From Marinobacter sp. AC-23 (GTDB lineage Bacteria > Pseudomonadota > Gammaproteobacteria > Pseudomonadales > Oleiphilaceae), in assembly GCF_001858325.1 (NCBI RefSeq), contig NZ_MBPP01000013.1, positions 24,362 through 88,361 on the forward strand: a stretch of DNA of 64,000 nucleotides, written 5' to 3'. The notes under the pieces are model-generated. The model saw only the letters and a program-made list of their open reading frames with translations. It did no database searches and was not told where the DNA came from. The position numbers and the translations under genes are program-made. Shown in pieces: positions 10,843-37,840 of this stretch; the first letter of the stretch is position 1, and every line of letters begins with the position of its first letter.

Positions 10843-12333
10843 TCAGGAAGGGAAGGCAAACTGAGTCCCTTCACGAACCCCTGCAGATGGCCAGCGTTGG
10901 GTAATCGTTTTACGCCGGGTATAGAAGCGAACTGAATCGGGGCCGTATGCGCCAAGATCTCCGAACAATGAACGTTTCCAGCCACCAAAGCTATGGTAAG
11001 ACACCGGAACGGGCAGGGGCACGTTGATGCCAACCATGCCTACCAGTATGTTGTCACTGAAATAGCGGGCAGCCTCGCCATCGCGAGTGAAAATGCAGGT
11101 GCCGTTGCCGTATTCGTGGTCGTTGATCAGCTGCATTGCCTCTTCCATGGTATTAACACGCATGACCAAAAGAACCGGGCCAAAGATTTCTTCAAGGTAG
11201 CAAGTCATGTTCGGGGTTACGCGGTCTATCAATGTGCCCCCAACATAAAATCCATTCTCGTGGCCAGGTACAGCTACACTGCGACCATCAACGACAACAT
11301 CTGCACCTTCTTGTTCCGCACTGCTGATATATCCGCAAACTTTTTCCTGGTGTGCCTTGGTGATCACTGGCCCAAAATCGTTCTTGGCGTCAGAGAAAGG
11401 CCCTACTTTCAGGCTCTCCATCTGCGCTTTCATTTTGTTGATCAGAGCATCTGCCATCTCATCACCAACTGCGACAGCAACCGAAAGCGCCATGCAACGT
11501 TCACCCGAGGAGCCAAACGCAGCACCAGTCAGTGCACTGATCGCATTATCCAGATCTGCATCCGGCATAACGATAGCGTGGTTCTTGGCACCACCCAAGG
11601 CCTGACAGCGTTTGCCGTTTGCACTTGCGCGGGAGTAGATATATTCAGCAATGGGGGTTGAGCCAACAAAGCTGACTGCCTGAACGCGGTCATCATCCAG
11701 CAAGGTGTCTACCGCTTCTTTATCGCCATTAACAACATTCAAAACGCCGGCAGGTAGGCCCGCTTCGTGAAGCAGTTCGGCAATGAACAGCACTGAAGAT
11801 GGGTCACGCTCCGAAGGCTTGAGTACGAATGTATTACCACAGGCGATTGCCATCGGGTACATCCATAGCGGCACCATTATCGGGAAGTTGAAGGGAGTGA
11901 TGCCAGCAACAACTCCCAGTGGCTGGAAATCACTCCAGGAGTCGATATTGGGGCCTGCGTTTTTGCTGTACTCGCCTTTGAGTAACTCTGGGGTGCCGCA
12001 AGCATACTCAACGTTTTCAATGCCTCGCCTAAGCTCGCCCATGGCATCATGAACGATCTTCCCATGTTCCTGACCTACAAGGCGGCAAATTTCGTCGGCA
12101 TTTTGTTCAAGGAGTTCCTTGAATCGAAACATAACCTGAGCGCGCTTGGAGGGAGGCGTGTTTCGCCAGGCCGGGTAAGCCGCATGTGCCGCCGCAACGG
12201 CCTCTTCTACGGTCGCTTTTGGTGCGAGGCTAAGCTTGGCGGCAACTTCGCCGGTCGATGGATTATAAACGTCTTGAGTGTGATCGTCTGTTGTCACGAT
12301 CTTGCTGTTAATCAGGTGTCCAATAGTTTTCAT
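10843..12333 (-). CDS. mmsA: CoA-acylating methylmalonate/malonate-semialdehyde dehydrogenase
   Basis: Oxidises malonate semialdehyde (from beta-alanine) or methylmalonate semialdehyde (from beta-aminoisobutyrate) to acetyl-CoA or propionyl-CoA with NAD and CoA. The 496-residue protein has the ALDH fold, with Rossmann motif FVGSTPIAEYIY, catalytic cysteine in SSGERCMALS, and QALGGAKNH where ordinary ALDHs carry the general-base Glu; loss of that Glu is the hallmark of the CoA-acylating MmsA family. The gene is downstream of the beta-alanine aminotransferase on the same strand with a 32-bp gap, so the pair form an operon. In this setting the role is probably the final step of uracil/thymine breakdown rather than valine breakdown, though both are possible. 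Confidence 0.92.
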   Translation of the reverse strand: MKTIGHLINSKIVTTDDHTQDVYNPSTGEVAAKLSLAPKATVEEAVAAAHAAYPAWRNTPPSKRAQVMFRFKELLEQNADEICRLVGQEHGKIVHDAMGELRRGIENVEYACGTPELLKGEYSKNAGPNIDSWSDFQPLGVVAGITPFNFPIMVPLWMYPMAIACGNTFVLKPSERDPSSVLFIAELLHEAGLPAGVLNVVNGDKEAVDTLLDDDRVQAVSFVGSTPIAEYIYSRASANGKRCQALGGAKNHAIVMPDADLDNAISALTGAAFGSSGERCMALSVAVAVGDEMADALINKMKAQMESLKVGPFSDAKNDFGPVITKAHQEKVCGYISSAEQEGADVVVDGRSVAVPGHENGFYVGGTLIDRVTPNMTCYLEEIFGPVLLVMRVNTMEEAMQLINDHEYGNGTCIFTRDGEAARYFSDNILVGMVGINVPLPVPVSYHSFGGWKRSLFGDLGAYGPDSVRFYTRRKTITQRWPSAGVREGTQFAFPS

Positions 12334-12365
12334 TGTTTGGTCTCGTCAAAAAATTGTGTTGGGTA

Positions 12366-13745
12366 TCAATCGAGTTCGTTGATAGCGTCGCCTATGGTGT
12401 TAATCACTCGGTCAATTTCATGTTCAGTGATGGTGAAGGGCAATCCAAGCTGAATCGAGTCGCCGCCATAGCGCACATAGAACCCTTTCTCCCAGCACTT
12501 CATGGCAATCTCGTATGGGCGGCGTGCCGGCTCGCCAGGGTAGCTCTCTATCTGGAAGGCACCTGCCAAACCATAGTTACGAATGTCAGTGATATAACGT
12601 GTACCTTTCAGGCTGTGCAAGGCGTCCTCGAATTTGGGACTGATTGCGCGTACCTGATCAATCAACTTGTCTTTCTCCAACACATCCAGGGCAGCCATGG
12701 CCGCTGCACAAGCAACAGGGTGACCTGAATAGGTGTACCCATGGGGCAGTTCCATCATGTAGTCGTGCCCACCTTGGTCCATGAAGGTCTGATAAATTTC
12801 GCTCTGTACAATCACTGCCCCCATTGGCACAGCACCGTTGGTCAGCTGTTTGGCAATGTTCATCATGTCTGGAATTACGCCAAACTCTTCTGCGCCTGAC
12901 ATGGAGCCCATTCGCCCGAAGCCCGTGATGACTTCGTCAAAAATCAGCAAAATATCATGTTGGTCGCAGATTTCGCGCAAGCGTTTCAAGTAACCGCGGG
13001 GGGGCGGAATGACTCCGGCGGAGCCTGCTAGTGGCTCTACGATCACAGCGGCGATGTTTGAAGCATCGTGCAGGGCAATAAGTTCCAGGAGATCATCTGC
13101 ACGTTCGGCACCGTGTTCCGGCATGCCCCGGGTGAAGGCGTTCTCTTTCAGAAGAGTGTGAGGTAGATGATCAGCGTCTATGCCTTGGCCAAACATGGTA
13201 CGGTTCGCTCCGATACCGCCCACACTGAAGCCACCAAAGTTAACGCCATGATAGCCCTTTGCACGGCCGATCAATTTGGTCTTGGTCGGCTTGCCATTTT
13301 TCCGCCAGTAGGCCCGGGCAATTTTTAGTGACGTGTCGGCACTTTCTGAACCTGATCCTGTGAAAAACACATTGTTCAGGTTTCCAGGCATGAGCTCACG
13401 CAGACGGTGGGCCAGTTCAAAGGCCTTTGGGTGGCCTAGCTGGAAGGATGGAGCATAGTCCAACTCCTGCAGTTGACGGCTTACAGCTTCTGCAATCTCA
13501 GGTCGACCATGACCAGCGCCGCAGGTCCAAAGCCCCGAGAGGCCATCAAGGATCTGACGACCGTTAGCATCAGTCAGGTAGTGACCTTTGGCAGCGGTGA
13601 TGAGGCGCGGATCACGTTTGAATTGCCGGTTGCTTGTGTAGGGCATCCAGTAAGCATCGAGTTGCTCGGGGCTTAGCCCGGCAAACCGGTTGTCGGCGAG
13701 TTCATTCTCGCTGTCAGCACCAAGTTGAGTCGCTAAATTATTCAT
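12366..13745 (-). CDS. omega-amino acid (beta-alanine):pyruvate aminotransferase
   Basis: Class III PLP transaminase that converts beta-alanine plus pyruvate to malonate semialdehyde plus L-alanine. Motifs include IFDEVITGFGRMG, the PLP lysine in NIAKQLTNGAVPMG, and HGYTYSGHPVACAA. The ATG at 13745 (MNNLATQ) is chosen over 13787 because AGGGGG lies about 5 bases before it; this gives 459 residues, in line with BauA-type enzymes. It is upstream of mmsA in the same operon and divergent from a LysR regulator. With the ureidopropionase and dihydropyrimidinase nearby, it fits pyrimidine breakdown. A polyamine or taurine role cannot be excluded. Confidence 0.9.
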   Translation of the reverse strand: MNNLATQLGADSENELADNRFAGLSPEQLDAYWMPYTSNRQFKRDPRLITAAKGHYLTDANGRQILDGLSGLWTCGAGHGRPEIAEAVSRQLQELDYAPSFQLGHPKAFELAHRLRELMPGNLNNVFFTGSGSESADTSLKIARAYWRKNGKPTKTKLIGRAKGYHGVNFGGFSVGGIGANRTMFGQGIDADHLPHTLLKENAFTRGMPEHGAERADDLLELIALHDASNIAAVIVEPLAGSAGVIPPPRGYLKRLREICDQHDILLIFDEVITGFGRMGSMSGAEEFGVIPDMMNIAKQLTNGAVPMGAVIVQSEIYQTFMDQGGHDYMMELPHGYTYSGHPVACAAAMAALDVLEKDKLIDQVRAISPKFEDALHSLKGTRYITDIRNYGLAGAFQIESYPGEPARRPYEIAMKCWEKGFYVRYGGDSIQLGLPFTITEHEIDRVINTIGDAINELD

Positions 13746-13895
13746 GCTGCCCCCTAGTTTGGGTTGTTGTTCAGTGATTGCTTGCATACACCATGGGATA
13801 GATTTTTGGTAAGTTAAATATAGAAGTATTTATTTTTGTGTAAGTATTTGCTTAACTATGGGATTGCTCCACAACAGGTATTAGGGAGAAGTGGC

Positions 13896-14816
13896 ATGAA
13901 ACGTCGCAGCACTGCGATATCCGGGCAGGTAAGTGATACCGATCTGAGGTTGCTCAGGATCTATCGAACCGTTGTTGAGTGTGGTGGTTTCTCAGCGGCA
14001 GAAGTTCAGGCGAACATCAGCCGCGCAGCAATCAGCATGGCCATGAGTGATCTTGAAACACGACTGTCCCTTCGGCTCTGCCAGCGTGGCCGCAGCGGGT
14101 TCTCGCTGACCGACGAAGGTGCCGAAGTGTATCAGGCAACCCTGCAGCTTCTGGCCTCGGTAGAGGGATTTCGTACCCGAGTGAACGGTTTGCACTCCAG
14201 ATTGAAAGGAGAGCTGAATATTGGCATAACAGATAACCTGGTAACCATACCCGAAATGCATATCACCAGTGCTCTCAGTGGGCTGAAGAAGCGTGGCCCG
14301 GAAGTAAAGATCAATATTCGTATGATTCCACCCAACGATATTGAGCTTGGAGTGCTCGACGGTCGCCTGCACACCGGCGTGGTACCCACCTTGAAAACCC
14401 TGCCAGGGTTGCAGTATCGACCGCTTTACGAAGAAGTTTCTCAACTTTACTGTGGCGTTGATCATCCACTCTTTGAGCATGCCCCGGAGAGTCTTGACGC
14501 GCTATCTGAGCATGATGCTGTCATACCAGCCTATGCTCAGGCACCGGAGATCAAGGCTCAATTGGAACCACTTAATGGATTGGCTTCCTCAACCGATCGC
14601 GAGGGAATAGCATTTCTGATTCTTTCGGGTTGTTACATTGGCTATTTGCCAACCCATTATGCCCATCACTGGGTTCGTGATGGCAAGATGTTTGCGCTGA
14701 TGCCGGATACTTGCCAGTACATAACTCGTTACAGCGCTATTACCCGGAAAGGGGCTCCGCCCAATTTGGTACTGGAAAGTTATCTTGAAGAGCTAGATCG
14801 CTTGAACGGCCAATAG
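13896..14816 (+). CDS. LysR-family transcriptional regulator
   Basis: It has an N-terminal winged helix-turn-helix (LRLLRIYRTVVECGGFSAAE, then RAAISMAMSDLETRLSLRLCQR) and a C-terminal periplasmic-binding-like effector domain, 306 residues in all. The start ATG 13896 is preceded by AGGGAGA, whereas the longer frame from TTG 13836 has no ribosome-binding site. The gene is divergent from the aminotransferase-dehydrogenase operon, with about 150 bp between starts, the classic layout for a LysR activator of its neighbour. The ligand is unknown; beta-alanine or a related amino acid is a reasonable guess. Confidence 0.88.
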   Translation: MKRRSTAISGQVSDTDLRLLRIYRTVVECGGFSAAEVQANISRAAISMAMSDLETRLSLRLCQRGRSGFSLTDEGAEVYQATLQLLASVEGFRTRVNGLHSRLKGELNIGITDNLVTIPEMHITSALSGLKKRGPEVKINIRMIPPNDIELGVLDGRLHTGVVPTLKTLPGLQYRPLYEEVSQLYCGVDHPLFEHAPESLDALSEHDAVIPAYAQAPEIKAQLEPLNGLASSTDREGIAFLILSGCYIGYLPTHYAHHWVRDGKMFALMPDTCQYITRYSAITRKGAPPNLVLESYLEELDRLNGQ

Positions 14817-15131: not shown

Positions 15132-15160
15132 TTGACTATCCGGAAAACGGCCCCTACCTT
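15132..15160 (+). promoter_or_regulatory. putative sigma-70 promoter upstream of the pyrimidine genes
   Basis: TTGACT at 15132-15137, a 17-base spacer, then TACCTT at 15155-15160. The -35 is good and the -10 weak (4 of 6), which is common for regulated promoters. It is about 280 bp upstream of the ureidopropionase start. Its -10 touches the inverted repeat described in the next entry. No transcription start is known. Confidence 0.4.
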
Positions 15161-15174
15161 TACCAACAGGTAAA
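15159..15174. promoter_or_regulatory. inverted repeat TTTACC-N4-GGTAAA, candidate RutR-like operator
   Basis: Perfect 6-bp arms around AACA. The layout TTnACC-A-nn-n-GGTnAA is close to the known E. coli RutR operator TTGACCA-nn-TGGTCAA, with the outer base pair of each arm changed. It overlaps the putative -10, as expected for a repressor site. The same 16-bp element occurs upstream of cofG (37907-37922), and a RutR-like TetR protein is encoded at 20071. Binding is inferred, not shown. Confidence 0.6.
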
Positions 15175-15243
15175 AAAATACAACACTCTCTTTTCTCTGA
15201 ACTAAGAATATAAGTTCAATATTTTCAGAAGGATATGAGAAAA

Positions 15244-15348: not shown

Positions 15349-15436
15349 CAGGCATTTCCGGGGTGTTTTTACTCAGAAGTGCTGAAGAAAACCGAAGGCT
15401 GTTGACACCACCCGACAAGAACAAGAGGTGAAAATT

Positions 15437-16318
15437 ATGGCTAAAGTCAAGTGTGGCTTGATTCAGATGGGCCTTAAAGGCAAGACCTCGATGAGTCCCG
15501 GCCAAATCCGTGATGAGATGATTTCTGCTCATCTGCCATTGATCGACGAAGCTGGGAAACAGGGCGTTCAAGTGCTCTGTTTTCAGGAAGTGTTCACCCA
15601 GCCCTACTTCTGTGCCAGCCAGGATACCAAGTGGTACGACGCGGCTGAGCGAATTCCAGACGGGCATACCACCCGATTGATGCAGGAGTATGCAAAGAAG
15701 TATCGAATGGTCATTGTTGTTCCCATATTCGAGGAGGACATTACTGGTGTTTTTTACAACACAGCAGCGGTGATCGACGCGGATGGAAGCTACCTCGGAA
15801 AATACCGTAAGAACCACATCCCTGATACGGCACCAGGATTCTGGGAGAAGCTCTACTTCAAACCAGGCAATAGTGGCTATCCAGTGTTTGATACTGCCTT
15901 TTGCAAGCTCGGTGTATACATCTGCTACGACCGTCATTTCCCCGAGGGTTGGCGTGCTCTGGCGTTAAACGGTGCGGAATATATTGTCAACCCTTCCGCT
16001 ACCGTCAAAGGAAAAAGCCGTTATCTGTGGGAGCTTGAACAGCCAGCCTCGGCAGCAGCCAATGGTGTCTTTATTGGCGCTATAAACCGCGTTGGAAAGG
16101 AAGCCCCATGGGACGATCGAATGGGTGAGTTTTATGGATCGAGCTATATCGTCAATCCACTCGGTCAAATCGAAGCGCAGGCCAGTGAAGATCAAGATGA
16201 ACTGCTGGTTCACGAGATTGATCTGGACATGATACGAGAGGTGCGTAAGGCTGGCAGTTTTTCCGCGACCGCCGCCCGGAATCTTACGAAAAACTGGTTG
16301 CACAATAAGGCGTTATAA
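15437..16318 (+). CDS. beta-ureidopropionase, nitrilase superfamily
   Basis: Hydrolyses N-carbamoyl-beta-alanine (or N-carbamoyl-beta-aminoisobutyrate) to the beta-amino acid, CO2 and ammonia. The nitrilase triad is visible: Glu51 (CFQEVFTQPYF), Lys125 (GKYRKNHIP) and Cys163 (VYICYDRHFPEGWR). The Cys-Tyr-Asp-Arg-His context and FWEKLYFKPGN segment are those of ureidopropionases and N-carbamoyl-D-amino-acid hydrolases. ATG 15437 follows AGAGGTGA; the product has 293 residues. It is the first large gene of a row with the NCS1 permease and dihydropyrimidinase. A related carbamoylase substrate is possible. Confidence 0.9.
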   Translation: MAKVKCGLIQMGLKGKTSMSPGQIRDEMISAHLPLIDEAGKQGVQVLCFQEVFTQPYFCASQDTKWYDAAERIPDGHTTRLMQEYAKKYRMVIVVPIFEEDITGVFYNTAAVIDADGSYLGKYRKNHIPDTAPGFWEKLYFKPGNSGYPVFDTAFCKLGVYICYDRHFPEGWRALALNGAEYIVNPSATVKGKSRYLWELEQPASAAANGVFIGAINRVGKEAPWDDRMGEFYGSSYIVNPLGQIEAQASEDQDELLVHEIDLDMIREVRKAGSFSATAARNLTKNWLHNKAL

Positions 16319-16383: not shown

Positions 16384-17903
16384 ATGAGCCATAAAACAAG
16401 TAATACATCAGCAAACAGTCCGGCGGGCATGCAGCCCGGATATTGCCCGGACCTCTGGAATGAAGATCTTTCGCCGGTCGAGCCCCATGAGCGAACCTGG
16501 AGGTGGCACAATATCGCGGCTTTATGGGTTGCCATGGTGGTCTGTGTTCCTGCCTACATGCTGGCTGCCAGCCTGGTGCCTGAAGGAATGTCCTGGTGGC
16601 AGGCGGTAATGACGGTATTTATTGGCAACCTTATTGTATTGGTCCCCATGTTGCTGTTTGGGCATGCGGGTGCAAAACATGGTATTCCTTTTCCTGTGCT
16701 GCTCAGAGCATCGTTCGGCACCTCAGGGGCAAAAGTTGCGGCTATGCTGCGCGGCATTGTTGGTTGCGGTTGGTTTGGCATACAGACATGGGTGGCGGCT
16801 CCGCCATCTACGTTATTCTCAACATCCTGACGGATCAGGCTCTGGTTGGGGAGGCCATTCCCGGTTTGGGCATCGACCTGGCACAGTTCCTGTCGTTTCT
16901 GGCTTGCTGGGGTTTGCATATTTATTTCATAGCTCGCGGAACCGAATCTATCCGTGTACTGGAGACCTATGCGGCTCCTTTTCTTATTGCGATGTCCGTC
17001 GGCTTGTTGGCCTGGGCAGTCGTTAAGGCAGGTGGTTTTGGCCCGATGTTGTCTACCCCGTCCGAGTTCGTAAAGGGCGGTGCTCGCGAGGGAGAATTCT
17101 GGCAAGCTTTTTGGCCGGGTTTAACCGCCATGGTGGGTTTCTGGGCAACCCTGGCCCTGAATATTCCTGACTTCACCCGATTTGCCAAGAACCAGCGCCA
17201 CCAATTTATCGGCCAGGCAGTGGGTTTGCCGATTCCTATGGCGCTGCTCGCATTCATTGCAGTAGGGGTGGCTTCGGCAACCGTGGTTATCTATGGCGAG
17301 GCACTTTGGGACCCCATTGCTATCACTGAACGCATGGGTGGTTTTGCAGTGGTTATCGCACTGCTGGCGCTGCTTATTGCCACGGTCACCACAAATATAG
17401 CGGCTAACGTGGTGGCTCCAGCCAATGGCTTTTCGAACCTTAGTCCGCGCTTAATTTCATTCCGCATGGGTGGCTACATCACCGCAGGGTTGGGGATCGT
17501 CATTATGCCGTGGAAGCTTCTGGAATCCACGGGTGCCTATATTTTTATTTGGCTGATCGGTTATTCAGCGCTACTTGGGCCCTTGGCCGGCATTATGCTT
17601 ACCGATTACCTGCTGCTCCGCAAAACGGAGCTCTCCCACGCAGATCTTTTCAAAAATGATGGGATATACAGCTACGGCAATGGCTGGAACACGAATGCCT
17701 TTATCGCATTCGCGGTTGCGGTTCTTCCCAACCTGCCCGGTTTCCTGGTGGCTGCAGGAGCCATGGGGAGTGCGCCCGTATTTTTCACTACCATTTATAA
17801 CTATGCCTGGTTTGTTGGCGTTGCTTTGGGCGCTGGCGTGTATTTCATGCTTATGCGCATCAGCCACCCGGCATTAGTGATGGCACAACCTGAAGCCAGC
17901 TAG
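16384..17903 (+). CDS. NCS1-family pyrimidine/hydantoin permease (single-base frameshift near 16794)
   Basis: Cytoplasmic-membrane symporter of the nucleobase:cation symporter-1 family. The N-terminal signature NEDLSPVEPHERTWRWHNIAA and about 12 hydrophobic segments are typical of uracil, allantoin and hydantoin permeases. The frame breaks at GG 16794-16795. Adding one G restores QTWVGGSAIY and a 506-residue protein ending at 17903. It lies between the ureidopropionase and dihydropyrimidinase genes, so uracil, thymine or a dihydropyrimidine is the probable cargo. The break matches the G/C-run losses seen elsewhere in the window, so the gene is probably intact in the cell. Confidence 0.88.
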
Positions 17904-17929: not shown

Positions 17930-19380
<1,451 letters not shown>

Positions 19381-19413: not shown

Positions 19414-19432
19414 CGTTTGAGGGTAACCATGC

Positions 19433-19870
19433 ATGTGGTTCTATTTCTTTACAGCTCTGGCAGCTGGCGCGATGCTGCCCGTGCAGGCCGGCATAAATGC
19501 CGGCCTGGCTCGTACTTCGCATCCCTTGTGGGCGGCGGCCGCCTCTTTCGGGATTGGTACCCTGGTACTATTAGCTGCAGCATTTTTCATGCGCATTACC
19601 GCGCCCAATTGGCAGCAGATGGCGTCGTTGCCAATCTGGGTCTGGACTGGCGGTTTTTTGGGTGCCTTTTACGTTACCGTAATGGTGGTTTTCGCGCCAA
19701 AATTGGGTGCGGCCACACTATTAGCGTTGGTGGTAGCGGGACAAATGTTTGCCTCTACGTTACTTGACCACTATGGTTTCCTTGGTTTCACTCAGCAATC
19801 AATCACACCACTGAGAGCATTGGGCGTGGCCCTGCTTTTTATAGGCGTCTTGCTCGTCAGAAAATTTTAA
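19433..19870 (+). CDS. small DMT/YdcZ-type (DUF606) membrane protein
   Basis: The 145-residue protein is almost entirely hydrophobic, with about five membrane segments (FFTALAAGAMLPVQAGINAGLA near the start, LLALVVAGQMFASTLLDHYG, and ALGVALLFIGVLLVRKF at the end). These are features of the YdcZ/DUF606 branch of the drug/metabolite transporter superfamily. GAGGG lies upstream of ATG 19433. The transported compound is unknown. Its position directly after the dihydropyrimidinase suggests export or uptake of a related compound, but that is only a guess. Confidence 0.75.
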   Translation: MWFYFFTALAAGAMLPVQAGINAGLARTSHPLWAAAASFGIGTLVLLAAAFFMRITAPNWQQMASLPIWVWTGGFLGAFYVTVMVVFAPKLGAATLLALVVAGQMFASTLLDHYGFLGFTQQSITPLRALGVALLFIGVLLVRKF

Positions 19871-22708: not shown

Positions 22709-22786
22709 TCTGAGCTTTTAACACAGATAGCCCAACTTATTATACGAACGATTATCGCATTGCTTAACAACAATAAGGAACTCAAT

Positions 22787-28759: not shown

Positions 28760-29921
28760 CAGGCTGTTGCCTCTTGTGGTTGAATGGAGCAGGACAGGCG
28801 CTCGCGAATGCGAGCAGCACGAACTTCACCCTGGTGTGTAATGACCGCTTGATCCAGAATCTCGTCTTCAAAATCCAGATTCAGGTGTCCTTCTTCATCC
28901 AGCAGGTGTCGCAGCAAGTTCTCAAGATTGCGCCCATACATCTGGCTGGCGTGGTTAGGCAATGTAGCCACTATGTCAACGGGGCCGAGGATAGTAACCC
29001 CGTAGGCGATGACGGTTTCACCAGCTTTGCTCAGCTCACAATTGCCGCCTCGCTCGGCAGCCAGATCGACGATGACCGACCCCAGCTTCATGCCTTTCAC
29101 CATGTCTTCCGTGATCAGTATGGGGCTTTTGCGCCAGGTATTGCTGCCGTGGTGATAACGACATCCTGTTGGGCCAGCACTGCGCTCATTTGCTCACGCT
29201 GACGGCTCAGGAAGTCATCGTCCTGTTTGCTGGCGTAACCTCCTTGTCCCTCTGCAGATGACGTGTCCAGGTCCAGGTCCACCGGTTTTGCGCCTACTGA
29301 CAAGATCTGTTCCCGTGCTGCCGGGCGGATGTCGTAGGCTTCCACGACGGCACCCAGTCGCTTGGCAGTGGCGGCAGCCTGCAAACCAGCTACTCCGGCA
29401 CCCATAATGAATACGCGGGCGGGATTCAGAGTGCCCGCGGCGGTCATCATCATTGGAAAGATACGCGGCGCATGAGCCGCAGCTATCAGAACGGCCTTAT
29501 AGCCCGCGAGGGTTGCGATGGAGGAGAGGGCGTCCATGCTCTGAGCTCGGCTGATACGTGGCACCAATTCAAGTGACAGTGTTGTGATACCGCGTTTTGC
29601 CAGGTCGCTGAAACGATCACAATGGCTCAGTGGGTCCATCAAACCGATACAGATATGGCCGGCACTCAGGTCTGCAAGCGCCTTATCACGGGAGGCGTCT
29701 ACGCACAGAATGATCTCGCCCTTTTCCAGAAGTTGTGCACGGGTATCAAGAATCTCAGCGCCTGCTTCCTGGTAGCTGTCGTTACTGAAACTGGCGGCGT
29801 CGCCGGCGCCAGTTTCAACAAAGACTTGGCAGCCGAGACTTTTTAAAGCTGAGACGTTAGCGGGTGTGAGCGCCACCCTGCCTCCATTAGGGTGGCGCTC
29901 ACGCATGACTGATAGTCGCAT
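28759..29921 (-). CDS. pntAA: NAD(P) transhydrogenase alpha-1 subunit PntAA (single-base frameshift near 29122)
   Basis: Soluble NAD(H)-binding subunit related to alanine dehydrogenase. It shows ERHPNGGRVALTP at the start, the Rossmann motif VFIMGAGVAGLQAAATAKRLGA with the acidic EAYDIRP, and SVIVDLAAERGGNCE. The frame breaks in a G4 run on the plus strand (29122-29125). One added base restores GAKAPILITEDMVKGMK and 387 residues. ATG 29921 is preceded by CCGGAGAA, better than TTG 29957. It starts about 33 bp after the M20 hydrolase stop and forms an operon with pntAB and pntB. Confidence 0.92.
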
Positions 29922-29953
29922 TGTTATTCTCCGGGGTCTGTCAGGACCTGTAA

Positions 29954-31186
29954 TCAATGGTTGGCGTGTTGAACTACAGCCAGGAACAGAACATCACAAC
30001 CAGCGGCCAGGTCGTCAGGACTTGCACGCTCGGCTTCGTTATGGCTGATGCCGTCCTCGCAAGGTACGAAGACCATTGATGTGGGCGCGACTCGGGAGAT
30101 ATAGCAGGCATCATGACCGGCACCGCTAACCATCTCACGATAGCTGAAGCCCAAGGCCTCTGTGGCCTTCCTTACGGAGGCGATACAATCCTTGTCGAAA
30201 GGAACGGGCGGGGAGTGCCAGATCTGTTTGAAGTCCATTTCTAACCGGCCATCTTCGGCAATGCGCTCGGCTCCCTCACGCAAGGCTTGGTCCATTTGTT
30301 CCAGAACCTTGGCATCCGGGTGGCGTATATCCACGGTAAAGAAAACCTGGCCCGGGATAACGTTGCGCGAGTTTGGGAAGACTTGCACAAGCCCTACAGT
30401 GGCGCAGGCGTTAGGCTGGTGATCCATACCAATGCGATTGACCATGTCGATGATGCGTGCGGCGCCTACCAATGCGTCACGACGGATGGGCATAGGTGTG
30501 GGGCCGGCATGGGATTCCTGGCCAGTGAGGGTGAGTTCGTACCAGCGCTGACCTTGGGCATCTGTAACCACGCCGATTTTTTTGCCCTCATCTTCAAGAA
30601 TGGGGCCTTGTTCAATATGGGCTTCAAAGAAGGCCTTGAATGGCCGTCCGCCAACGTCGAGGTCTCCGGCATAGCCAATGCGCTCTAGTTCTTCACCCAT
30701 GGTTTTGCCGTCAAGATCAGCTCGGCTAAGGCCGTACTCAAGGTCAAACTCGCCTGCAAAAACGCCGGAGGACACCATCGCCGGTGGGAAGCGCGAACCT
30801 TCCTCATTTGTCCAGACAGAAGCCTCGATTGGCGCGCGAGTTTTGATATTGTTATCGTTAAGGGTGCGGATGACCTCAAGGCCCGCCAGTACACCGTAAA
30901 CTCCATCGAATTTGCCACCTGTAGGTTGGGTATCCAGGTGGCTGCCCATAACAACGGGAGGCAAAGAGTCATCTTCACCGGCTCTGCGGGCAAAAATGTT
31001 GCCCATTTTATCGATCGTTATGGTGCAACCCGCTTCTTCACACCAGCGAACGAAGAGATCACGGCCCTGCCTATCCAGATCGGTGAGTGCTAACCGACAG
31101 CAGCCACCCTTTTCGGTGCCACCAATCTCGCCCATCTCCATCAAAGTGTCCCACAGGCGCTGTTTGTTGATACGAATGTCTTTCAT
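29954..31186 (-). CDS. M20-type N-carbamoyl-amino-acid hydrolase / beta-ureidopropionase
   Basis: Binuclear zinc amidase of the AtzE-unrelated hydantoinase/carbamoylase (HyuC, PydC) family. Metal ligands appear as H and D of MGSHLDTQPTGGKFDG, E of WTNEEGSRF, H of FEAHIEQGP and H of GISHNEAE. The dimerisation lid (SHAGPTPMPIRRDAL) is also present. The 410-residue length is standard, and GCGAGGC precedes the ATG. It sits between the F420-type LLM gene and pntAA. It is unrelated in fold to the nitrilase-type ureidopropionase at 15437, so it may act on a second carbamoyl compound, such as N-carbamoyl-beta-aminoisobutyrate or a hydantoic acid. Confidence 0.9.
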   Translation of the reverse strand: MKDIRINKQRLWDTLMEMGEIGGTEKGGCCRLALTDLDRQGRDLFVRWCEEAGCTITIDKMGNIFARRAGEDDSLPPVVMGSHLDTQPTGGKFDGVYGVLAGLEVIRTLNDNNIKTRAPIEASVWTNEEGSRFPPAMVSSGVFAGEFDLEYGLSRADLDGKTMGEELERIGYAGDLDVGGRPFKAFFEAHIEQGPILEDEGKKIGVVTDAQGQRWYELTLTGQESHAGPTPMPIRRDALVGAARIIDMVNRIGMDHQPNACATVGLVQVFPNSRNVIPGQVFFTVDIRHPDAKVLEQMDQALREGAERIAEDGRLEMDFKQIWHSPPVPFDKDCIASVRKATEALGFSYREMVSGAGHDACYISRVAPTSMVFVPCEDGISHNEAERASPDDLAAGCDVLFLAVVQHANH

Positions 31187-31326: not shown

Positions 31327-32331
31327 TTAACTCTGGAAATGCGGAATTATATGTTCGCCATATTGCGCGATTATGTTTTCCTCATCACCGTTATCCAGAT
31401 AGATATTGAAGTGGGTCATACCGGCCTCCTTGAGATGCTGAAGCTTTTTGATATGGTCCTTAGGCTGGCCCAGTACGCAAAAACTCTCAACAATCTCTGG
31501 CGTTATGAAATCCAGATAAGGGTTGTCACTTTGGCCATGCTTGGAGTAGTCATAGCCCTTACGCTTCTCGATATAGTCGGTAAGGCTTTTGGGAACCATG
31601 CCGCTGTCGGTACCATACTTTTCAACGATATCTGCCACATGGTTACCAACCATGGCGGGAAACCACTTGGTCGCTTCGATGCAGCTTTCTTTGTCACCGA
31701 AGTAGGCCGGTGCGGCAACGATTACCTTGTAATCGTCCATCTTGCGTCCAGCTTCCTCGCCAGCCGTGCGAGCCTGGCTGCCAAGCCACTCCACAATGTA
31801 AGGGTCGCCAATCTGCAGGATAACGCCATCCCCAACTTCGCCTGCAGTCTTCAGGGCCTTGGGGCCATAAGCGCCTATATGCACGGGCAGCTCGTAGCCG
31901 TCGGACCAGGGGAATTTCACCGGTTCCGGGCAGTCGCCATAGATCACTTCTTCGCCGCGCACCATCGCTTTGACCTTCTGAGTGAACTCTGTCAATCGGG
32001 CCAATGTTGCCGGTTTTTTACCCATAACCCTGACTGAGCTATCGCCGCGGCCAAGCCCTATGTCGAAGCGACCCCCACTCTGCTTGGCGAGGCTGGCAAA
32101 CAGGCTGGCGGCCAGAGACCAGTCACGAGCATTGGGGTTAGTTACGCAGGGAGCGAAACGCATTTTCGTTGTATGCTCCATGCACATGGCAATGGCCGGA
32201 TAGCACTCGCGCCACAAAATGTGTGAGTCGTAGAACCAGCAGTAGTCGAAGCCGGCGTCTTCTGCCTGCTTGACCAAGCTGCGCGCGCGCTCGGGGCTAA
32301 CGAAACCTTTAAAACAGATACCGAATTCCAT
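31327..32331 (-). CDS. luciferase-like (LLM) F420-dependent oxidoreductase, candidate pyrimidine reductase
   Basis: The 334-residue protein has the TIM-barrel fold of the LLM superfamily, close to methylene-tetrahydromethanopterin reductase and F420-dependent glucose-6-phosphate dehydrogenase. Evidence is AEDAGFDYCWFYDSH, FAPCVTNPNARDWSLAAS, GGRFDIGLGRGDSSVRVMG and PVHIGAYGPKALK. It does not follow the RutA pyrimidine monooxygenase pattern (no ATAATLTLPPA or NLVTGW segments). It is the only LLM protein in the window and is next to the F420:NADPH reductase, whose product F420H2 it would use. AGAAGGAAT precedes the ATG. The substrate is unknown. The missing dihydropyrimidine dehydrogenase makes reduction of uracil/thymine, or a similar ring, the leading guess. 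Confidence 0.88.
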   Translation of the reverse strand: MEFGICFKGFVSPERARSLVKQAEDAGFDYCWFYDSHILWRECYPAIAMCMEHTTKMRFAPCVTNPNARDWSLAASLFASLAKQSGGRFDIGLGRGDSSVRVMGKKPATLARLTEFTQKVKAMVRGEEVIYGDCPEPVKFPWSDGYELPVHIGAYGPKALKTAGEVGDGVILQIGDPYIVEWLGSQARTAGEEAGRKMDDYKVIVAAPAYFGDKESCIEATKWFPAMVGNHVADIVEKYGTDSGMVPKSLTDYIEKRKGYDYSKHGQSDNPYLDFITPEIVESFCVLGQPKDHIKKLQHLKEAGMTHFNIYLDNGDEENIIAQYGEHIIPHFQS

Positions 32332-32388: not shown

Positions 32389-33054
32389 TCAGGCGTCGGG
32401 CGCCCAGATGCGCATACCTGCATGGGTAAATGGAACTTTCTTGGAGATGTTGAGGCGAATCAGGATTGGCGTAATGGCCTCGATACAACGTGCACTAAAA
32501 GCAGGGCCAGCGTTGTAGGCCTCCACTTCCAGCAGCCGGATCAAGTCCATCACTTTCTCCTTGGCTGCCAAATCGTTGCCGCACACAAGCACATCACAGT
32601 TAATGCGATGATCCAGCTGGTTGAGAGTGACTGCCGAGACATTGTGCAGGGCACCCACGACAGGAATACCATCGCCAAGCAGCTCTTGGGCTGCCTCTGT
32701 TGCAGAGCCTGCGGCGGGCATATCTACTTTTTTGGGATCGCCATCGGCCAAAGGAACCACTATATCAACCAGGATCTTGCCTTCGAGCAGATCGCGGATT
32801 GAATCCAGTGTGGCGTCATGGGCCGCGTAGGGCACGGCAAGGATTACCATTTCACCGGCCGCCGCAACAGCACCACGGATATCATCACCGCTGATCTGCG
32901 CAGCGCCAGTCAACATGCCATTGAGTTCGTCAGCAGTTGTTTGAGCGCGCTCAGAGTCGCGGGATCCAATTACGACAGGGCGTCCGGCACGGGCGAACCT
33001 AAGTGCCAGACCGCGGCCCTGGGGGCCGGTACCGCCAAGAATAGCAATACTCAT
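32389..33054 (-). CDS. npdG: NADPH:F420 oxidoreductase
   Basis: Transfers hydride between NADPH and coenzyme F420. The N-terminus [20 protein letters not shown] is the NADP-binding GGTGxxG loop, followed by [12 protein letters not shown] with the phosphate-binding Ser-Arg. Later motifs are [27 protein letters not shown] and [15 protein letters not shown]. It has 221 residues. I use ATG 33054 rather than the longer frame because it overlaps the cofE stop as ATGA, with AGAGGA upstream. It is the direct link between cellular NADPH and F420H2, so the host should use reduced F420 in catabolism. Confidence 0.93.
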
Positions 33055-33830
33055 CGGAACATATCCTCTTGTTGGGGTCTTATCAGTTGTCCTGCTGAGC
33101 TGTCGCAGGATTGCCATTCAACGCCGCTGAATAGTATTGCCGGCGTTTTGTCACTTTTTCCCATCACCAAACCCGATGCGGCCGCTAATTCGTCGGCCAG
33201 GGCGGGCATGGTTACAGAAAGTTCTCGACCGAAAGCATCTCGTTCGCCAACCATGTCGATGCGTGCTGGCACTTTTGCCAAGCCGATCGCCACGTTGACG
33301 AGACCAAGTCGCCAGGGTCTGCCAAAGGTGTCGGTGATCACCACGCCCACGCGCACTCCGAATGCATCCTCTAAGCGCGAACAAAGCCGTTTGGCGCTTG
33401 CGTCCGGATCTTTGGGCAGAAGGATGACGGTATCCTCACGGCCCACGTTGGATTCATCCACGGCGGCGTTTGCACAGATGAAGCCCAGACGGTGCTCCGC
33501 AATCAACGTGCCTTCCTGTTGATCGGGGCGTTTCATTGCACGCACTATGCGGGTGGATTCGCGAAGGATGACTTCTACTTTTCGAGGGTCTTTGTGGATT
33601 TTTTCGGCCAGCTCCAATGCTTCAGCACTGGGGGTAACATCTGCCAGAGCAACAATCTGCCCCTCGGCTTTGGAGACCACTTTGTGAGCGATCACTAAAA
33701 TATCGCCATCCTGCAGATGCGTACCATGGCTCTTCAGGTTGTCGATCAATATGCCCGCCAAATCATCATCAGGATGAATGTCAGGAATGCCTTCGAGTGC
33801 GTGGAGGCTCACTTTGCCCTGAGGTGTCAT
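33051..33830 (-). CDS. cofE: F420-0:gamma-glutamyl ligase CofE
   Basis: Adds gamma-linked glutamates to F420-0 using GTP. Motifs include [37 protein letters not shown]-like [18 protein letters not shown] and [10 protein letters not shown]. The 259-residue protein is a single CofE domain without the nitroreductase-like extension of actinobacterial FbiB. Start choice is ATG 33830, which overlaps the cofC stop (ATGA); ATG 33845 or 33890 would only add an unconserved tail. It is translationally coupled to cofC before it and npdG after it. Confidence 0.93.
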
Positions 33831-34528
33831 TGTGTTGCCATCCATGTTGAACGCGCTTTCGTGGCGTGTAGGGTTGAGCACAATTTCCACAGTCTCTTCA
33901 GCTCCTGAGGCGTATTGCTGCCTTGCTGTTGGACGATGGAATCGAGCGTGTTCAGGTCTTCAGGGGTATCCAGGTCAAAGCGCAAGTGAGTCAACTCAAT
34001 AATCTGACAAGGTAAACCCAGTCGCGCAGCGGCCTCTTTGTGGGCAACGCTGGAGCGCTCGCCAAAACGAAACGGGATAGCATCAGGAGGTGAGGTCAGC
34101 AGGGCATTGGTGCCCGCATCGTTGGCCGGGCAAAGCGCTACACCGGGAGAACCGTTGTAGGTTGCCAGCAACGTGCGAATCTCTGCCTCATCAAGATGTG
34201 CAATATCTGTCGGTATTAGCAGCTGAGCGCTGTAGCCATGCGAGTGGCTCCATGCAGCGGCACGTTCCGCCGCCCTGGACAGACCTTCGGCGACAGGTTC
34301 CTTCAACACCTGTGCGCCGTGACGGTGAGCCAGCTCGGCAATAAACGAGGATGAGGTGACAACCAGCAGGTCGTACTCCGGCAGGCGTCGGTCAAAAAAA
34401 CGAAGTGTGCGCTCACAAAGACGCCGGGCCAGAGTGGCGCGACGATGGGGCAGAAAAATGCCACCAAGGCGGCTTTTCGCCTCATCAAAGCCTTTTACAG
34501 GGATAACGATCAGAGGCTTTTTTAACAT
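33827..34528 (-). CDS. cofC: CofC guanylyltransferase for F420 side chain
   Basis: Activates the three-carbon acid (2-phospholactate, phosphoenolpyruvate or 3-phosphoglycerate, depending on species) with GTP for transfer by CofD. The nucleotidyltransferase fold shows IPVKGFDEAKSRLGG at the start, LLIPTDIAHL, CPANDAGTNALL and RFDLDTPEDLNTLD. It has 233 residues. The start overlaps the cofD stop. Which acid is used cannot be decided from sequence by eye. Confidence 0.92.
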   Translation of the reverse strand: MLKKPLIVIPVKGFDEAKSRLGGIFLPHRRATLARRLCERTLRFFDRRLPEYDLLVVTSSSFIAELAHRHGAQVLKEPVAEGLSRAAERAAAWSHSHGYSAQLLIPTDIAHLDEAEIRTLLATYNGSPGVALCPANDAGTNALLTSPPDAIPFRFGERSSVAHKEAAARLGLPCQIIELTHLRFDLDTPEDLNTLDSIVQQQGSNTPQELKRLWKLCSTLHATKARSTWMATQ

Positions 34529-35484
34529 GTGGCAGCCTCCTTCATCCCGACTTTGCTGGCAAAGGCCAGCACCGCTTTGGCAAGCTCCTTTTTGTCATCG
34601 GCGCAGGCCATCAATGTGGAGGTGGTTAATACCTCCAGGCCTCGGGCTTCCAGTTCGTTGCGTTCGGCCTGATCCTCATGGTCAATCACCAGGCCATCTA
34701 TAAGGCCGGCGTAGCTATCAGCCACGCCCAGGCTGTTGCACGCAAACCCTGATGCTTTCAGCATCCGGTCAGCGGGTCCTTTAATGGTGCGACCGCCGAT
34801 CAGCGGTGACACGGCCACTCTGGCGGCACGGGTTTCGGCCACAGCCTGACGGATGCCCGGTATTGCCAATATGGGTGCAATGCTGACGATCGGATTGCTT
34901 GGGGCGATCAATAGCAGATCGGCGTCTTCAATGGCCTTTATTGCTTCCGGGGTTGGCCAGGATTCCTCTGCCCCCTCGTAACGAATCTCGAGCACGTCCG
35001 GTTGGCAGCGTTCGCGAACAAAGTACTCCTGAAAGCTCAACCAGCCTTCGGCCGTTCTGATGCGCGTTTGCAGCGGGTCATCCGTGGGCAGGAGTATATG
35101 AGCCTGAACGCCCAGGGCTTCGGCAATTGTTTGAGCGATGGCGCTCGGGCGGATCCCCTGATTGCGCAGATGAGTGCGAAATATATGAGTGGCCATGTCT
35201 TGATCGCCCAGCGACATCCAGGTGTCACAGCCAAGGCGTTCTAGGCCAGCCAGTACACGATGTCGCTCATCGGCAAGGCCCCAGCCCTGCTTCCGGTCAA
35301 TCATATCTGCCAGGCTGTAGGTCAGGGTGTCGATATCCGGTGAGACCCAAAGGCCATGGAACTCTTCGTCATCGGCAATGTTTCCAATGATCGAGAGGTT
35401 TTCCGGTGAGCAGATCGCAGCCAATCCCTCGGCCAGTTTCGCGCCGCCCACACCGCCAGCCAGCAAGGTGATTCGCATAGTCAT
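34522..35484 (-). CDS. cofD: CofD 2-phospholactate (or analogue) transferase
   Basis: Joins the activated three-carbon unit to the deazaflavin FO (or 7,8-didemethyl-8-hydroxy-5-deazariboflavin) to give F420-0 or its dehydro form. The start MRITLLAGGVGGAKLAEGL is the family signature, followed by NIADDEEFHGLWVSPDIDTLTY, LLIAPSNPIVSIAPILAIPG and VAVSPLIGGRTIKGPADRML. It has 320 residues. It overlaps cofH upstream by 4 bases and cofC downstream by 7, indicating tight coupling. Confidence 0.95.
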   Translation of the reverse strand: MTMRITLLAGGVGGAKLAEGLAAICSPENLSIIGNIADDEEFHGLWVSPDIDTLTYSLADMIDRKQGWGLADERHRVLAGLERLGCDTWMSLGDQDMATHIFRTHLRNQGIRPSAIAQTIAEALGVQAHILLPTDDPLQTRIRTAEGWLSFQEYFVRERCQPDVLEIRYEGAEESWPTPEAIKAIEDADLLLIAPSNPIVSIAPILAIPGIRQAVAETRAARVAVSPLIGGRTIKGPADRMLKASGFACNSLGVADSYAGLIDGLVIDHEDQAERNELEARGLEVLTTSTLMACADDKKELAKAVLAFASKVGMKEAATC

Positions 35485-36692
35485 ACCTGAATTCCTGCAA
35501 TACGTGGGAAGTAACGCATTTCATCGAAGGTTTCGACGTGCTCATAAAGGGTGTTGCGACGAACAGGGCGCCGGCCCATGTCGCGAATGATTCGCGCCAT
35601 GTCTTCAGGCTTCATCTCCTGGCCATGCATGGCGCCGGCCGCTCGGGAGATACTTTCATTCATCAAGGTGCCGCCCAGGTCATTAACGCCAGCAGCAAGC
35701 AATTCCCCGGCAAGATCAGGCCCCATCTTCACCCAGGAAGCTTGAATGTTGTCTATCCAGCCATGGAGCATCAGCCTTGCCACGGCGTGCATACGAATAT
35801 GCTCAAGCCGTGTTGGGCCTGGGCGAACGCCTTTGTCCTCAAGAAAGAGTGGGGTTTTGTAATGGATGAACCCCAGAGGTACGAACTCGGTGAAGCCACC
35901 GGTTTGTTTCTGAATCTTGCGTAGCAAGCCTAAGTGCGTAGCCCAATGTTCGGGGCCGTCGATATGGCCGTACATGATGGTAGATGTGGTGGGCAAGCCT
36001 TCTTCGTGAGCCGCCGTAATGATTTCGACCCACTGCTCGGTGGTGAGCTTGTCCCGGGTCAACTGCTTCCGAACTTCAGTATCGAGTATCTCTGCTGCGG
36101 TGCCCGGCATTGAGCCCAAGCCATGGTCCATCAAATCACGAATAAAATCGCGATAGGACATGCGGCTCTTTTGCGCACCAAACCAGATCTCGAAGGGAGA
36201 GAATGCGTGGATGTGCATGTCTGGCAGCACACGTTTGATCGCCTTCACCATATCCCGATAAAAATGTCCGGAAATGTTCGGGTGCAATCCACCCTGAATG
36301 CAGACCTCTGTGGCGCCTCTATCCCAAGCTTCCTGGGCGCGACGAGTGATTTCATCAAGGTCGAAAAATTCTGCGTCTGGGTCACTCTTGCGCTTGGCAA
36401 AATTGCAGAAGCGGCAACCCATGTAGCACACATTGGTGTAGTTGATGTTTCTGGTAATCACGAAGGTCGCATCATCGCCTACGGCGCGGCGACGGAGTAC
36501 ATCTGCGGTTGCTGTCAGGGCGTTTAGTTCAGCGCCTTCAACCTGGAATAGCTCAATAGCATCCGGTTCGCTCAGCTCCTTGCCGTTCAGGACTTCCTGC
36601 AGCACTTGTCGGATGGCATCGCTCACCTCAGGGTGGGAGACTTCCTCGGGTATGCCGAAGCCGGAATAGTGCACTGTTTTTGTAATATTCAT
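35481..36692 (-). CDS. cofH: FO synthase subunit CofH (radical SAM)
   Basis: Radical SAM enzyme that couples tyrosine-derived fragment to 5-amino-6-ribitylaminouracil, the first dedicated F420 step. The [4Fe-4S] cysteines are C89, C93 and C96 (VCYMGCRFCNFAK), with GATEVCIQGGLHPNISG and ISRAAGAMHGQEM further on. ATG 36692 follows AAGGAGA and is preferred over 36722. It has 403 residues and follows cofG by 20 bp. CofG and CofH are separate here, as in archaea and many proteobacteria, rather than fused as in actinobacterial FbiC. Confidence 0.95.
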   Translation of the reverse strand: MNITKTVHYSGFGIPEEVSHPEVSDAIRQVLQEVLNGKELSEPDAIELFQVEGAELNALTATADVLRRRAVGDDATFVITRNINYTNVCYMGCRFCNFAKRKSDPDAEFFDLDEITRRAQEAWDRGATEVCIQGGLHPNISGHFYRDMVKAIKRVLPDMHIHAFSPFEIWFGAQKSRMSYRDFIRDLMDHGLGSMPGTAAEILDTEVRKQLTRDKLTTEQWVEIITAAHEEGLPTTSTIMYGHIDGPEHWATHLGLLRKIQKQTGGFTEFVPLGFIHYKTPLFLEDKGVRPGPTRLEHIRMHAVARLMLHGWIDNIQASWVKMGPDLAGELLAAGVNDLGGTLMNESISRAAGAMHGQEMKPEDMARIIRDMGRRPVRRNTLYEHVETFDEMRYFPRIAGIQV

Positions 36693-36712
36693 GTGACGTC
36701 TCCTTTTCGGGG

Positions 36713-37840
36713 CTAGATACACTGCTGCAGTGCTAGCCCGTCTGCCCGCGCTATGCCGGTCAGTCGGGAAGCAATGTTGTCGGTAAGAAACTGCTTGGGT
36801 TCCCGCAGGTATCGGGGATAAATCGCCAAGCGTTCTTCCAGGCCGTAACCGCAGCGCGCAGTCGCTTGCTTTAGAGCCTCGATTTGGGGCCAGGCGCGTT
36901 CCGGGTTGATGTGATCGATGGTGAGTGGTGAGATCCCGCCCCAGTCGTTGATGCCAGCGGCTGTATAAGCAGCGAAGCGTTCTTCCAGGTTAGGGGGGGC
37001 TTGTAAACTAATGGAGGGGTCGAGTATCAAACGGGCTAACACCAGTGTTCGAACCATGTCACCCAGGCTCGGCTCCGGGTGATTGGCCATCGCTGTTCCG
37101 GATTTGGCTCGGAAGTTTTGAACGATGACTTCTTGTATATGGCCGTGGCGAAGGTGTGCGTCATTGATTGCGGTGAGGCTGTCGACGCGCTCCTCCCAAG
37201 TCTCTCCAATGCCAATCAGAATGCCGGTGGTGAAAGGTACGCCATGAACTCCTGCCCGCTCCAGAGTGCGCAGGCGCTGCACCGGCACCTTGTCGGGGCA
37301 AGCGAAGTGAGCCTCGCCGCGCTGCAAAAGGCGACGGCTTACGTTCTCGAGCATCATCCCCATGCTTACGCTCACTTCTTTTAGCTGGAGGAGCTCGTTT
37401 TCGGATAGGGTGCCGGCGTTAACGTGGGGCAACAGCGAACTTTCCTTTAGCACGAGATCACACATCTCGGCCAGGTAGTCGATCATGCTGGTATGGCCGA
37501 GTCTGGCCAGTGCGTCACGTGCCTCTTGGTAGCGCAGTTCGGGCTTTTCACCCAGGCTGAACAGTACTTCCTTGCACCCCAGCTTCTCGCCTTCACGCAC
37601 GACTTTCATGACTTCATCCGGAGTCATCACGTAGGCGCCTGATGTTCCCGGCTTTTGCACAAATGTGCAGTAGCCGCACTCATCACGACACATGGTGGTC
37701 AGAGGAATGAAGACTTTGCGGGAGTAGGTAAGGGTTTTACCCCAGTGCTCATCACGCAGACTGGCAGCGCGGTGAGTAAAGGTCTCAAATTCTGAAGGTG
37801 ACGCATTTTTCAGCGCCAAGGCTTCCCTATGGCTGAGCAT
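36713..37840 (-). CDS. cofG: FO synthase subunit CofG (radical SAM)
   Basis: Second radical SAM half of FO synthase, closing the deazaflavin ring. The cluster cysteines are C51, C55 and C58 (MCRDECGYCTF), with KVFIPLTTMC before them and HINPERAWP near the end. The 375-residue length is normal. It is the first gene of the leftward F420 operon. Upstream is a candidate promoter with two inverted repeats. The start ATG has AGGAGGCGCC just before it. Confidence 0.95.
   Translation of the reverse strand: MLSHREALALKNASPSEFETFTHRAASLRDEHWGKTLTYSRKVFIPLTTMCRDECGYCTFVQKPGTSGAYVMTPDEVMKVVREGEKLGCKEVLFSLGEKPELRYQEARDALARLGHTSMIDYLAEMCDLVLKESSLLPHVNAGTLSENELLQLKEVSVSMGMMLENVSRRLLQRGEAHFACPDKVPVQRLRTLERAGVHGVPFTTGILIGIGETWEERVDSLTAINDAHLRHGHIQEVIVQNFRAKSGTAMANHPEPSLGDMVRTLVLARLILDPSISLQAPPNLEERFAAYTAAGINDWGGISPLTIDHINPERAWPQIEALKQATARCGYGLEERLAIYPRYLREPKQFLTDNIASRLTGIARADGLALQQCI

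Follow-up and report, generated by a model that had tools for sequence, protein, structure and literature searches.

Here, we describe a locus of Marinobacter sp. AC-23 in which a complete gene set for coenzyme F420 stands among genes of reductive pyrimidine degradation. The dihydropyrimidine dehydrogenase of that pathway is missing, and a luciferase-like oxidoreductase (LLM) of the locus likely takes over its role by reducing uracil and thymine with F420H2. The locus lies in a stretch of 64,000 nucleotides (NCBI RefSeq assembly GCF_001858325.1, contig NZ_MBPP01000013.1, positions 24,362 to 88,361), hereafter the window, which is part of contig C13 in a genome of 4.15 Mb, 105 contigs and 99% completeness. 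Since the two gene sets are kept together in relatives and the usual first enzyme is mostly missing there, F420 likely powers the first step. This reading, proposed in the initial annotation of the stretch, is the best-supported one, as judged by comparative genomics only. Mutual exclusion with PreA, the exchange within one genus and the RutR-type operator on the F420 genes go beyond that annotation and agree with it. What the data show directly is the gene content, the lack of PreA and RutA within the search thresholds, the co-occurrence of the genes, the mutual exclusion seen in the order survey and the conservation of the operator; cofactor, substrate, reaction direction and regulation are what we infer from them.

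Every gene named in the initial annotation was located in the window. The genes cofG-cofH-cofD-cofC-cofE-npdG-LLM-M20 hydrolase-pntAA-pntAB-pntB form one minus-strand row from 37840 down to 27059, followed leftward past pntB by a Tsx-like channel gene, ribA and an IS5 transposase gene. Further left, the plus strand carries a nitrilase-type amidase, an NCS1 permease, a dihydropyrimidinase, a YdcZ protein, a RutR-like regulator, codA and codB, and the left end of the interval holds a LysR gene and then, on the minus strand, an omega-aminotransferase and a methylmalonate-semialdehyde dehydrogenase. The cof genes, npdG and LLM were judged against curated NCBIfam cut-offs, and in the profile search of the window all five F420-biosynthesis genes (cofG, cofH, cofD, cofC, cofE; 5/5) score above the cut-off of their family. 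The two ureidopropionase-type hydrolases previously proposed correspond by homology to a predicted M20 type and a predicted nitrilase type. The PntAA/PntAB/PntB genes, ribA, the Tsx-like channel, the IS5 transposase and several frame breaks had not been listed before. The features that bear on the pathway are the following.

10843..12333, minus strand: CoA-acylating (methyl)malonate-semialdehyde dehydrogenase (TIGR01722, 676.7 bits, cut-off 448.5)
12366..13787, minus strand: omega-aminotransferase, predicted beta-alanine / 3-aminoisobutyrate aminotransferase (NF052567 AptA, 723.8 bits, cut-off 500)
15160..15173, no strand: predicted RutR-type operator ahead of the amidase/permease/dihydropyrimidinase genes (exact TTACCANNNGGTAA)
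15428..16318, plus strand: nitrilase-type beta-ureidopropionase-like amidase (CN_hydrolase; top solved matches include the animal beta-ureidopropionases 8pt4 and 6ftq, 188 bits)
16384..17903, plus strand: NCS1 nucleobase permease with a frame break near 16690-16860 (aligns with intact Halomonas proteins as two collinear halves; TIGR00800, 216.7 bits on one half, below the cut-off of 353.1)
17942..19380, plus strand: dihydropyrimidinase, frame-broken near 18277-18286 (TIGR02033, 461.8 bits from the second half alone, cut-off 393.25)
20071..20721, plus strand: RutR-like TetR regulator with conserved uracil-contact residues (top solved match E. coli RutR 3loc, 140.7 bits, 37% identity)
21429..22708, plus strand: cytosine deaminase codA with a frame break near 21818 (second half: NF005748, 535.9 bits)
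22760..24088, plus strand: cytosine permease codB (NF008241, 503.4 bits, cut-off 326)
27059..28468, minus strand: transhydrogenase PntB (PF02233, 589.2 bits)
28472..28759, minus strand: transhydrogenase PntAB, small subunit (by-eye reading of the sequence)
29115..29957, minus strand: transhydrogenase PntAA, 3' end apparently frame-broken (NF006942, 270.4 bits over profile 1-264 of 510; by eye, coding goes on in another frame)
29954..31186, minus strand: M20 hydrolase, predicted beta-ureidopropionase of the PydC type (NF006769, 685.9 bits; 8c46 N-carbamoyl-beta-alanine amidohydrolase, 494.3 bits)
31327..32331, minus strand: TIGR03842 luciferase-like oxidoreductase (LLM), predicted F420H2-dependent uracil/thymine reductase (502.8 bits, cut-off 295.45)
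32389..33117, minus strand: NADPH:F420 oxidoreductase npdG (TIGR01915, 195.9 bits, cut-off 149.8)
33051..33890, minus strand: cofE (TIGR01916, 271.6 bits, cut-off 180.65)
33827..34528, minus strand: cofC (TIGR03552, 140.9 bits, cut-off 105)
34522..35484, minus strand: cofD (TIGR01819, 291.6 bits, cut-off 257.45)
35481..36722, minus strand: cofH (TIGR03551, 511.2 bits, cut-off 374.1)
36713..37840, minus strand: cofG (TIGR03550, 467.2 bits, cut-off 213.35)
37908..37921, no strand: predicted RutR-type operator 67 bases ahead of cofG (exact TTACCANNNGGTAA)
37941..37954, no strand: second, weaker operator-like site ahead of cofG (two mismatches)

The lack of PreT/PreA/PydA and RutA, which had been noted for the window, extends to the genome, where neither PreA/PydA nor RutA was found at the thresholds used. 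A known dihydropyrimidine dehydrogenase elsewhere was judged unlikely, because the sole DHO_dh-domain protein of the whole genome is the class-2, quinone-dependent PyrD and PreA gave no NF006183 match at E 1e-90. A RutA-like oxygenase was judged unlikely as well: RutA was not found in this genome at E 1e-60, and 0/42 genomes exceeded the TIGR03612 cut-off, with E. coli and Caulobacter matched as controls. The remaining luciferase-family genes of the genome are of the NtaA/DmoA and MsnO8 types. Outside the window, the genome contains a second, intact gene of the hydantoinase/dihydropyrimidinase family (G000:C47:16086-17450, 548.5 bits).

Next, we surveyed 390 genomes spread evenly over the order of the strain, with a dihydropyrimidinase threshold of E 1e-100. 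LLM was found above cut-off in 17 genomes, cofD in 102 (99 above cut-off), PreA in 27 and dihydropyrimidinase in 41. Contrary to the initial annotation, F420 genes are thus not rare in this order, with cofD matches in 102/390 genomes; the special feature is their link to this LLM. All LLM genomes carry cofD (17/17), nearly all carry dihydropyrimidinase (16/17) and none carries PreA (0/17), so that the supposed co-occurrence of LLM with cof genes and dihydropyrimidinase holds in the order; cofD is in turn absent from the PreA genomes (0/27). The 41 dihydropyrimidinase genomes divide into 16 with LLM, 19 with PreA, none with both and six with neither. LLM and dihydropyrimidinase lie within 15 kb of each other on the same contig in 13/17 genomes. 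Of note, the Fisher values of this survey ignore relatedness and hence overstate the evidence.

Genomes with cofD but without LLM make up 85 of the 390, and dihydropyrimidinase was detected in none of them (0/85), which ties F420 to pyrimidine breakdown only via LLM. In the eleven cof loci of this kind that we inspected (L099-L109), npdG, cofE and cofD are adjacent, with cofG-cofH after them in ten. Since these loci have neither LLM nor a RutR-type site, F420 must serve something else there.

The conserved linkage foreseen for related genomes is present in many genera. When named genomes were searched with the 17 aligned LLMs, 265 relatives came up, and we retained the best 80. These 80 loci are mostly from Gammaproteobacteria, e.g. 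Halomonas, Marinomonas, Alteromonas, Vibrio, Halopseudomonas, Oceanospirillum, Amphritea and Colwellia, and a few are alphaproteobacterial (Limimaricola, Ruegeria). Within 10 kb of LLM they contain npdG, cofE and cofC (74 loci each), cofD and cofH (73 each) and cofG (66), together with the RutR-like regulator (72), the M20 hydrolase (63), the first part of dihydropyrimidinase (34), PntAA (19) and PntB (18). Six loci have no cof gene in the flank (L020, L021, L022, L054, L063, L077); cofD is found elsewhere or on another contig in all six genomes. Whole-genome searches covered 40 of the best 80 LLM loci and found both cofD (40/40; 38 above cut-off) and dihydropyrimidinase (40/40) throughout, sharing a contig in 29 genomes and lying at most 30 kb apart in 27. 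The closest named locus is that of Marinobacter salexigens (L114; LLM 95% identical), which has the same set in collinear order minus the transposase/ribA/Tsx stretch, with 111 bases from PntB to CodB. Three further loci (L059, L063, L071) come from records titled Osedax symbiont; LLM and the M20 hydrolase are present in 3/3 and flanking F420 genes in 2/3.

An exchange of first enzymes can be followed within a single genus, g93, in which two genomes carry PreA (G343, G395) and one carries cof and LLM (G178). In all three, dihydropyrimidinase is 68-73%, the M20 hydrolase 55-57% and the RutR-like regulator 38-48% identical to that of the window. The versions differ in PreA versus cofGHDCE-npdG-LLM, and the downstream genes are the same.

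For the LLM itself, the nearest solved sequences and folds are F420-dependent enzymes, namely the luciferase-like hydride transferases Mer, F420-dependent alcohol dehydrogenase and FGD. With 129.8 bits against the Mer model TIGR03555, far below the cut-off of 348.7, it is not Mer by that test, and its predicted substrate, in contrast to these enzymes, is a pyrimidine. The F420H2-quinone reductase family is absent from 48/57 LLM genomes, that of AC-23 included; the 57 comprise three duplicate pairs with identical coordinates (G015/G293, G020/G143, G024/G319), and among the 54 distinct genomes the count is 46/54. Most likely, the LLM is an F420H2-dependent uracil/thymine reductase that replaces dihydropyrimidine dehydrogenase, where both cofactor and substrate are predictions.

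The regulator of the locus scores 171.7 bits against the TIGR03613 equivalog, below the cut-off of 368, and is hence named RutR-like. The sequence TGACCANNTGGTCA, which we take to be the RutR consensus, has 35 matches with up to three mismatches in the window versus 26 expected; 7/100 shuffles reach 35, so this count is not significant alone. From the window and this presumed consensus we derived the operator pattern TTACCANNNGGTAA, for which the relatives served as test. Exact matches occur only twice in the 64-kb window, at 15160 and 37908; a third site with up to one mismatch (8259) is inside a histidyl-tRNA-synthetase-like gene and was taken as chance. Ahead of cofG, TTACCANNNGGTAA with up to one mismatch was found in 55/65 relatives versus 2/1300 dinucleotide shuffles, and a looser earlier count gave 56/67 versus 9/335 random stretches. 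At least one operator site is present at 65/80 loci, and many relatives have further sites upstream of the M20 hydrolase and RutR-like genes. No site of the TTACCANNNGGTAA type was found in 220 kb covering the cof loci of 11 order genomes without LLM and of three genomes with cof apart from LLM; L113 of G145, as a fifteenth cof locus, lacks TTACCA-type sites and has a single TGACCA-type site with one mismatch. Among PreA-type loci, L086, L087 and L095 have TGACCANNTGGTCA-form sites with up to one mismatch near regulator, hydrolase and dihydropyrimidinase, and none was found at L092 and L093.

E. coli RutR is described in PMC10891134 as binding a palindrome of ~16 bp, from which it is released by uracil, with W77, Y97, W167, Q171 and Q179 as contacts. 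All five are kept by the window regulator (W78, Y99, W169, Q173, Q181), by 70/72 related regulators and by the five PreA-locus regulators examined. As the operator ahead of cofG is conserved and the uracil contacts are kept, pyrimidines probably induce F420 synthesis.

Altogether, the following route can be proposed. CodB would import cytosine, which CodA would convert to uracil, and with uracil present the RutR-like repressor would leave the operators of the catabolic genes and of cofG, such that F420 is made on demand. The Pnt transhydrogenase would supply NADPH, NpdG would pass a hydride from NADPH to F420, and LLM would use it to reduce uracil or thymine at the C5-C6 double bond. Next, dihydropyrimidinase would open the ring, the M20 or the nitrilase-type hydrolase would release beta-alanine or 3-aminoisobutyrate together with CO2 and ammonia, and the aminotransferase followed by the (methyl)malonate-semialdehyde dehydrogenase would carry out the last steps. 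We consider it probable that F420 is in these bacteria an inducible cofactor largely dedicated to pyrimidine catabolism and LLM an evolutionarily unrelated dihydropyrimidine dehydrogenase.

Several observations weigh against this route. The dihydropyrimidinase is frame-broken in this assembly, and a fold or family name leaves the substrate of the LLM unfixed. One of the 17 LLM genomes of the order lacks dihydropyrimidinase (G145, LLM 43-44% identical). The operator is missing at one mismatch in 10/65 cofG upstreams (all six Limimaricola, L013, L026, L062 and L076), and in the window no site with up to two mismatches stands ahead of the RutR-like gene or codA. The counts are not independent, because nine of the 17 LLM genomes, which span six families, are congeneric and Marinomonas contributes about a quarter of the 80 loci. 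Distances between cluster proteins correlate moderately (Spearman 0.22-0.60, mirror-tree) and were not used as support. Finally, 5/40 named LLM genomes (G021, G030, G031, G032, G039) also hold a DHO_dh protein that is PreA-sized as far as length and score can tell (open frames of 429-450 aa, E values of about 1e-28 to 1e-31). In G030, G031, G032 and G039, a dihydropyrimidinase lies within 4 kb of the PreA-sized protein and at least one other exists per genome, with another copy within 7 kb of cofD in G030, G031 and G032. Genomes with both first enzymes thus usually have a separate dihydropyrimidinase for each, as in four of these five.

As to the protein of G145 (L098, G145:C47:76500-96499), this TIGR03842 member of 43-44% identity to that of the window adjoins a semialdehyde-dehydrogenase gene and may represent a second clade of the family with a different role.

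The substrate could also be another one: we see a small chance that the LLM is an F420H2-dependent reductase of this pathway whose true substrate is a different ring, for instance a hydantoin, a modified pyrimidine or one derived from purines, with the reduction of uracil/thymine not its principal role. Hydantoin-type compounds are likewise substrates of dihydropyrimidinases and M20 hydrolases. PMC12507026 proposes a putative luciferase-family F420 enzyme for yanthine reduction in Chloroflexota. However, LLM stands in for PreA among dihydropyrimidinase genomes, the regulator retains the uracil contacts of RutR, and the window also offers codA, codB and two beta-ureidopropionase-like hydrolases, all of which speaks against such a ring. 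An even smaller probability falls to an LLM that opens the uracil ring like RutA, as an FMNH2-dependent oxygenase, with the F420 genes serving something else. The Rut pathway (RutA-G, RutR) resembles the locus in its RutR-like regulator and operator type, and RutA has the same broad fold as the LLM; the locus differs in having no RutA at the family cut-off and in that ring opening is assigned to dihydropyrimidinase.

Alternatively, the F420 and pyrimidine genes could share no function and stay together only through chance or as cargo of a mobile block. The distribution of the block is scattered: 15 other genomes of the genus were compared, and all lack LLM above cut-off, cofD and dihydropyrimidinase. 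The window LLM and its Halomonas counterpart share 92% identity. This combination makes it likely that the block was acquired by horizontal transfer. Yet the association spans many genera despite changing gene order, G280 keeps LLM and dihydropyrimidinase 7.7 kb apart though its cof genes are on another contig, dihydropyrimidinase is missing from all 85 cofD genomes without LLM, and the operator stands ahead of cofG. For these reasons chance linkage was judged unlikely, and we give such joint travel hardly any weight.

A further question is whether the copy of this strain still works. That it is decaying, whatever its role in relatives, seems unlikely, though less so than any of the alternatives above. 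Frame breaks affect the NCS1 permease, dihydropyrimidinase, codA and apparently pntAA, and an IS5 transposase gene sits inside the interval. Compared with intact relatives, permease, dihydropyrimidinase and codA each consist of collinear halves in different frames; these halves are 84-92% identical to the intact proteins, and in M. salexigens the frames of dihydropyrimidinase (483 aa) and codA (427 aa) are full-length. The adenylosuccinate synthase gene purA (9413-10531) looks frame-broken too, as its frame matches profile 2-349 of 430 with the remainder in another frame, and the genome contains, away from the locus, a split MsnO8-type gene that is unrelated to it. Damage to a housekeeping gene such as purA favours sequencing error over decay, without settling the matter; the frame breaks are thus probably sequencing errors.

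The locus is a variant form of reductive pyrimidine degradation whose first enzyme, if confirmed, is of a new kind. PreA-type and LLM-type loci have dihydropyrimidinase, the M20 hydrolase and a RutR-like regulator in common, but unlike the PreT/PreA (or PydA) pathway the window contains cofGHDCE, npdG and a luciferase-like oxidoreductase and no PreA. Two described systems come close. The available part of PMC10714638 presents NpsU / SSGG-03002 of Streptomyces as uracil C5-C6 reductases of uridyl-peptide antibiotics and putative F420/FMN-dependent oxidoreductases, for which that part does not demonstrate in vitro activity. They would reduce the same bond as predicted for the LLM, NpsU being biosynthetic; the likeness is by description. 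The putative F420-dependent yanthine reductase of Chloroflexota is a luciferase-family protein proposed to substitute for a PydA-like reductase in a nucleobase pathway, according to PMC12507026; it differs in belonging to a purine pathway and another phylum, and is likened by description only. In the open literature, we found no report of F420-dependent uracil or thymine catabolism, with most subscription papers outside this search.

If true, F420 would thereby gain its first assigned physiological role in Gammaproteobacteria, and a specific one in a large group (Halomonas, Marinomonas, Alteromonas, Halopseudomonas and relatives), namely pyrimidine use. It would point to a candidate uracil reductase of a new kind, account for the genomes in which dihydropyrimidinase occurs and dihydropyrimidine dehydrogenase does not, and suggest that an entire cofactor pathway can come under a catabolic repressor. 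Such a reductase could also serve as a biocatalyst.

The remaining features of the interval are as follows.

13836..14816, plus strand: LysR-type regulator (weak NCBIfam LysR matches, all below cut-off; near LLM in 16/80 loci)
19430..19867, plus strand: YdcZ family membrane protein (PF04657, 144.6 bits)
24307-25293: IS5-family transposase between codB and ribA (found in the profile search of the window)
25459..26103, minus strand: GTP cyclohydrolase II RibA (TIGR00505, 264.4 bits, cut-off 205.85; in 5/80 related loci)
26206..26958, minus strand: Tsx-like nucleoside channel (PF03502, 38.7 bits)

RibA could supply the FO precursor for F420. The URC uracil route was considered for the ribA gene, but the window gene is an ordinary RibA. 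NF005536, presumably the URC1-like (GTP cyclohydrolase II-like) family of that route, matched 0/57 genomes, yet the control genomes gave no match either. An Rfam scan of the window returned zero matches. Directly beyond cofG and divergent from it, genes for a D-amino-acid dehydrogenase and an alanine racemase occupy 38113-40494. The genes cofG and cofH are separate here (35481-37840), unlike the fused FbiC that the review PMC8498797 ascribes to Proteobacteria. The coding stretch of the IS5 element holds 13.5 copies of the 10-base unit TCCAGTGCTT at 25142-25276.

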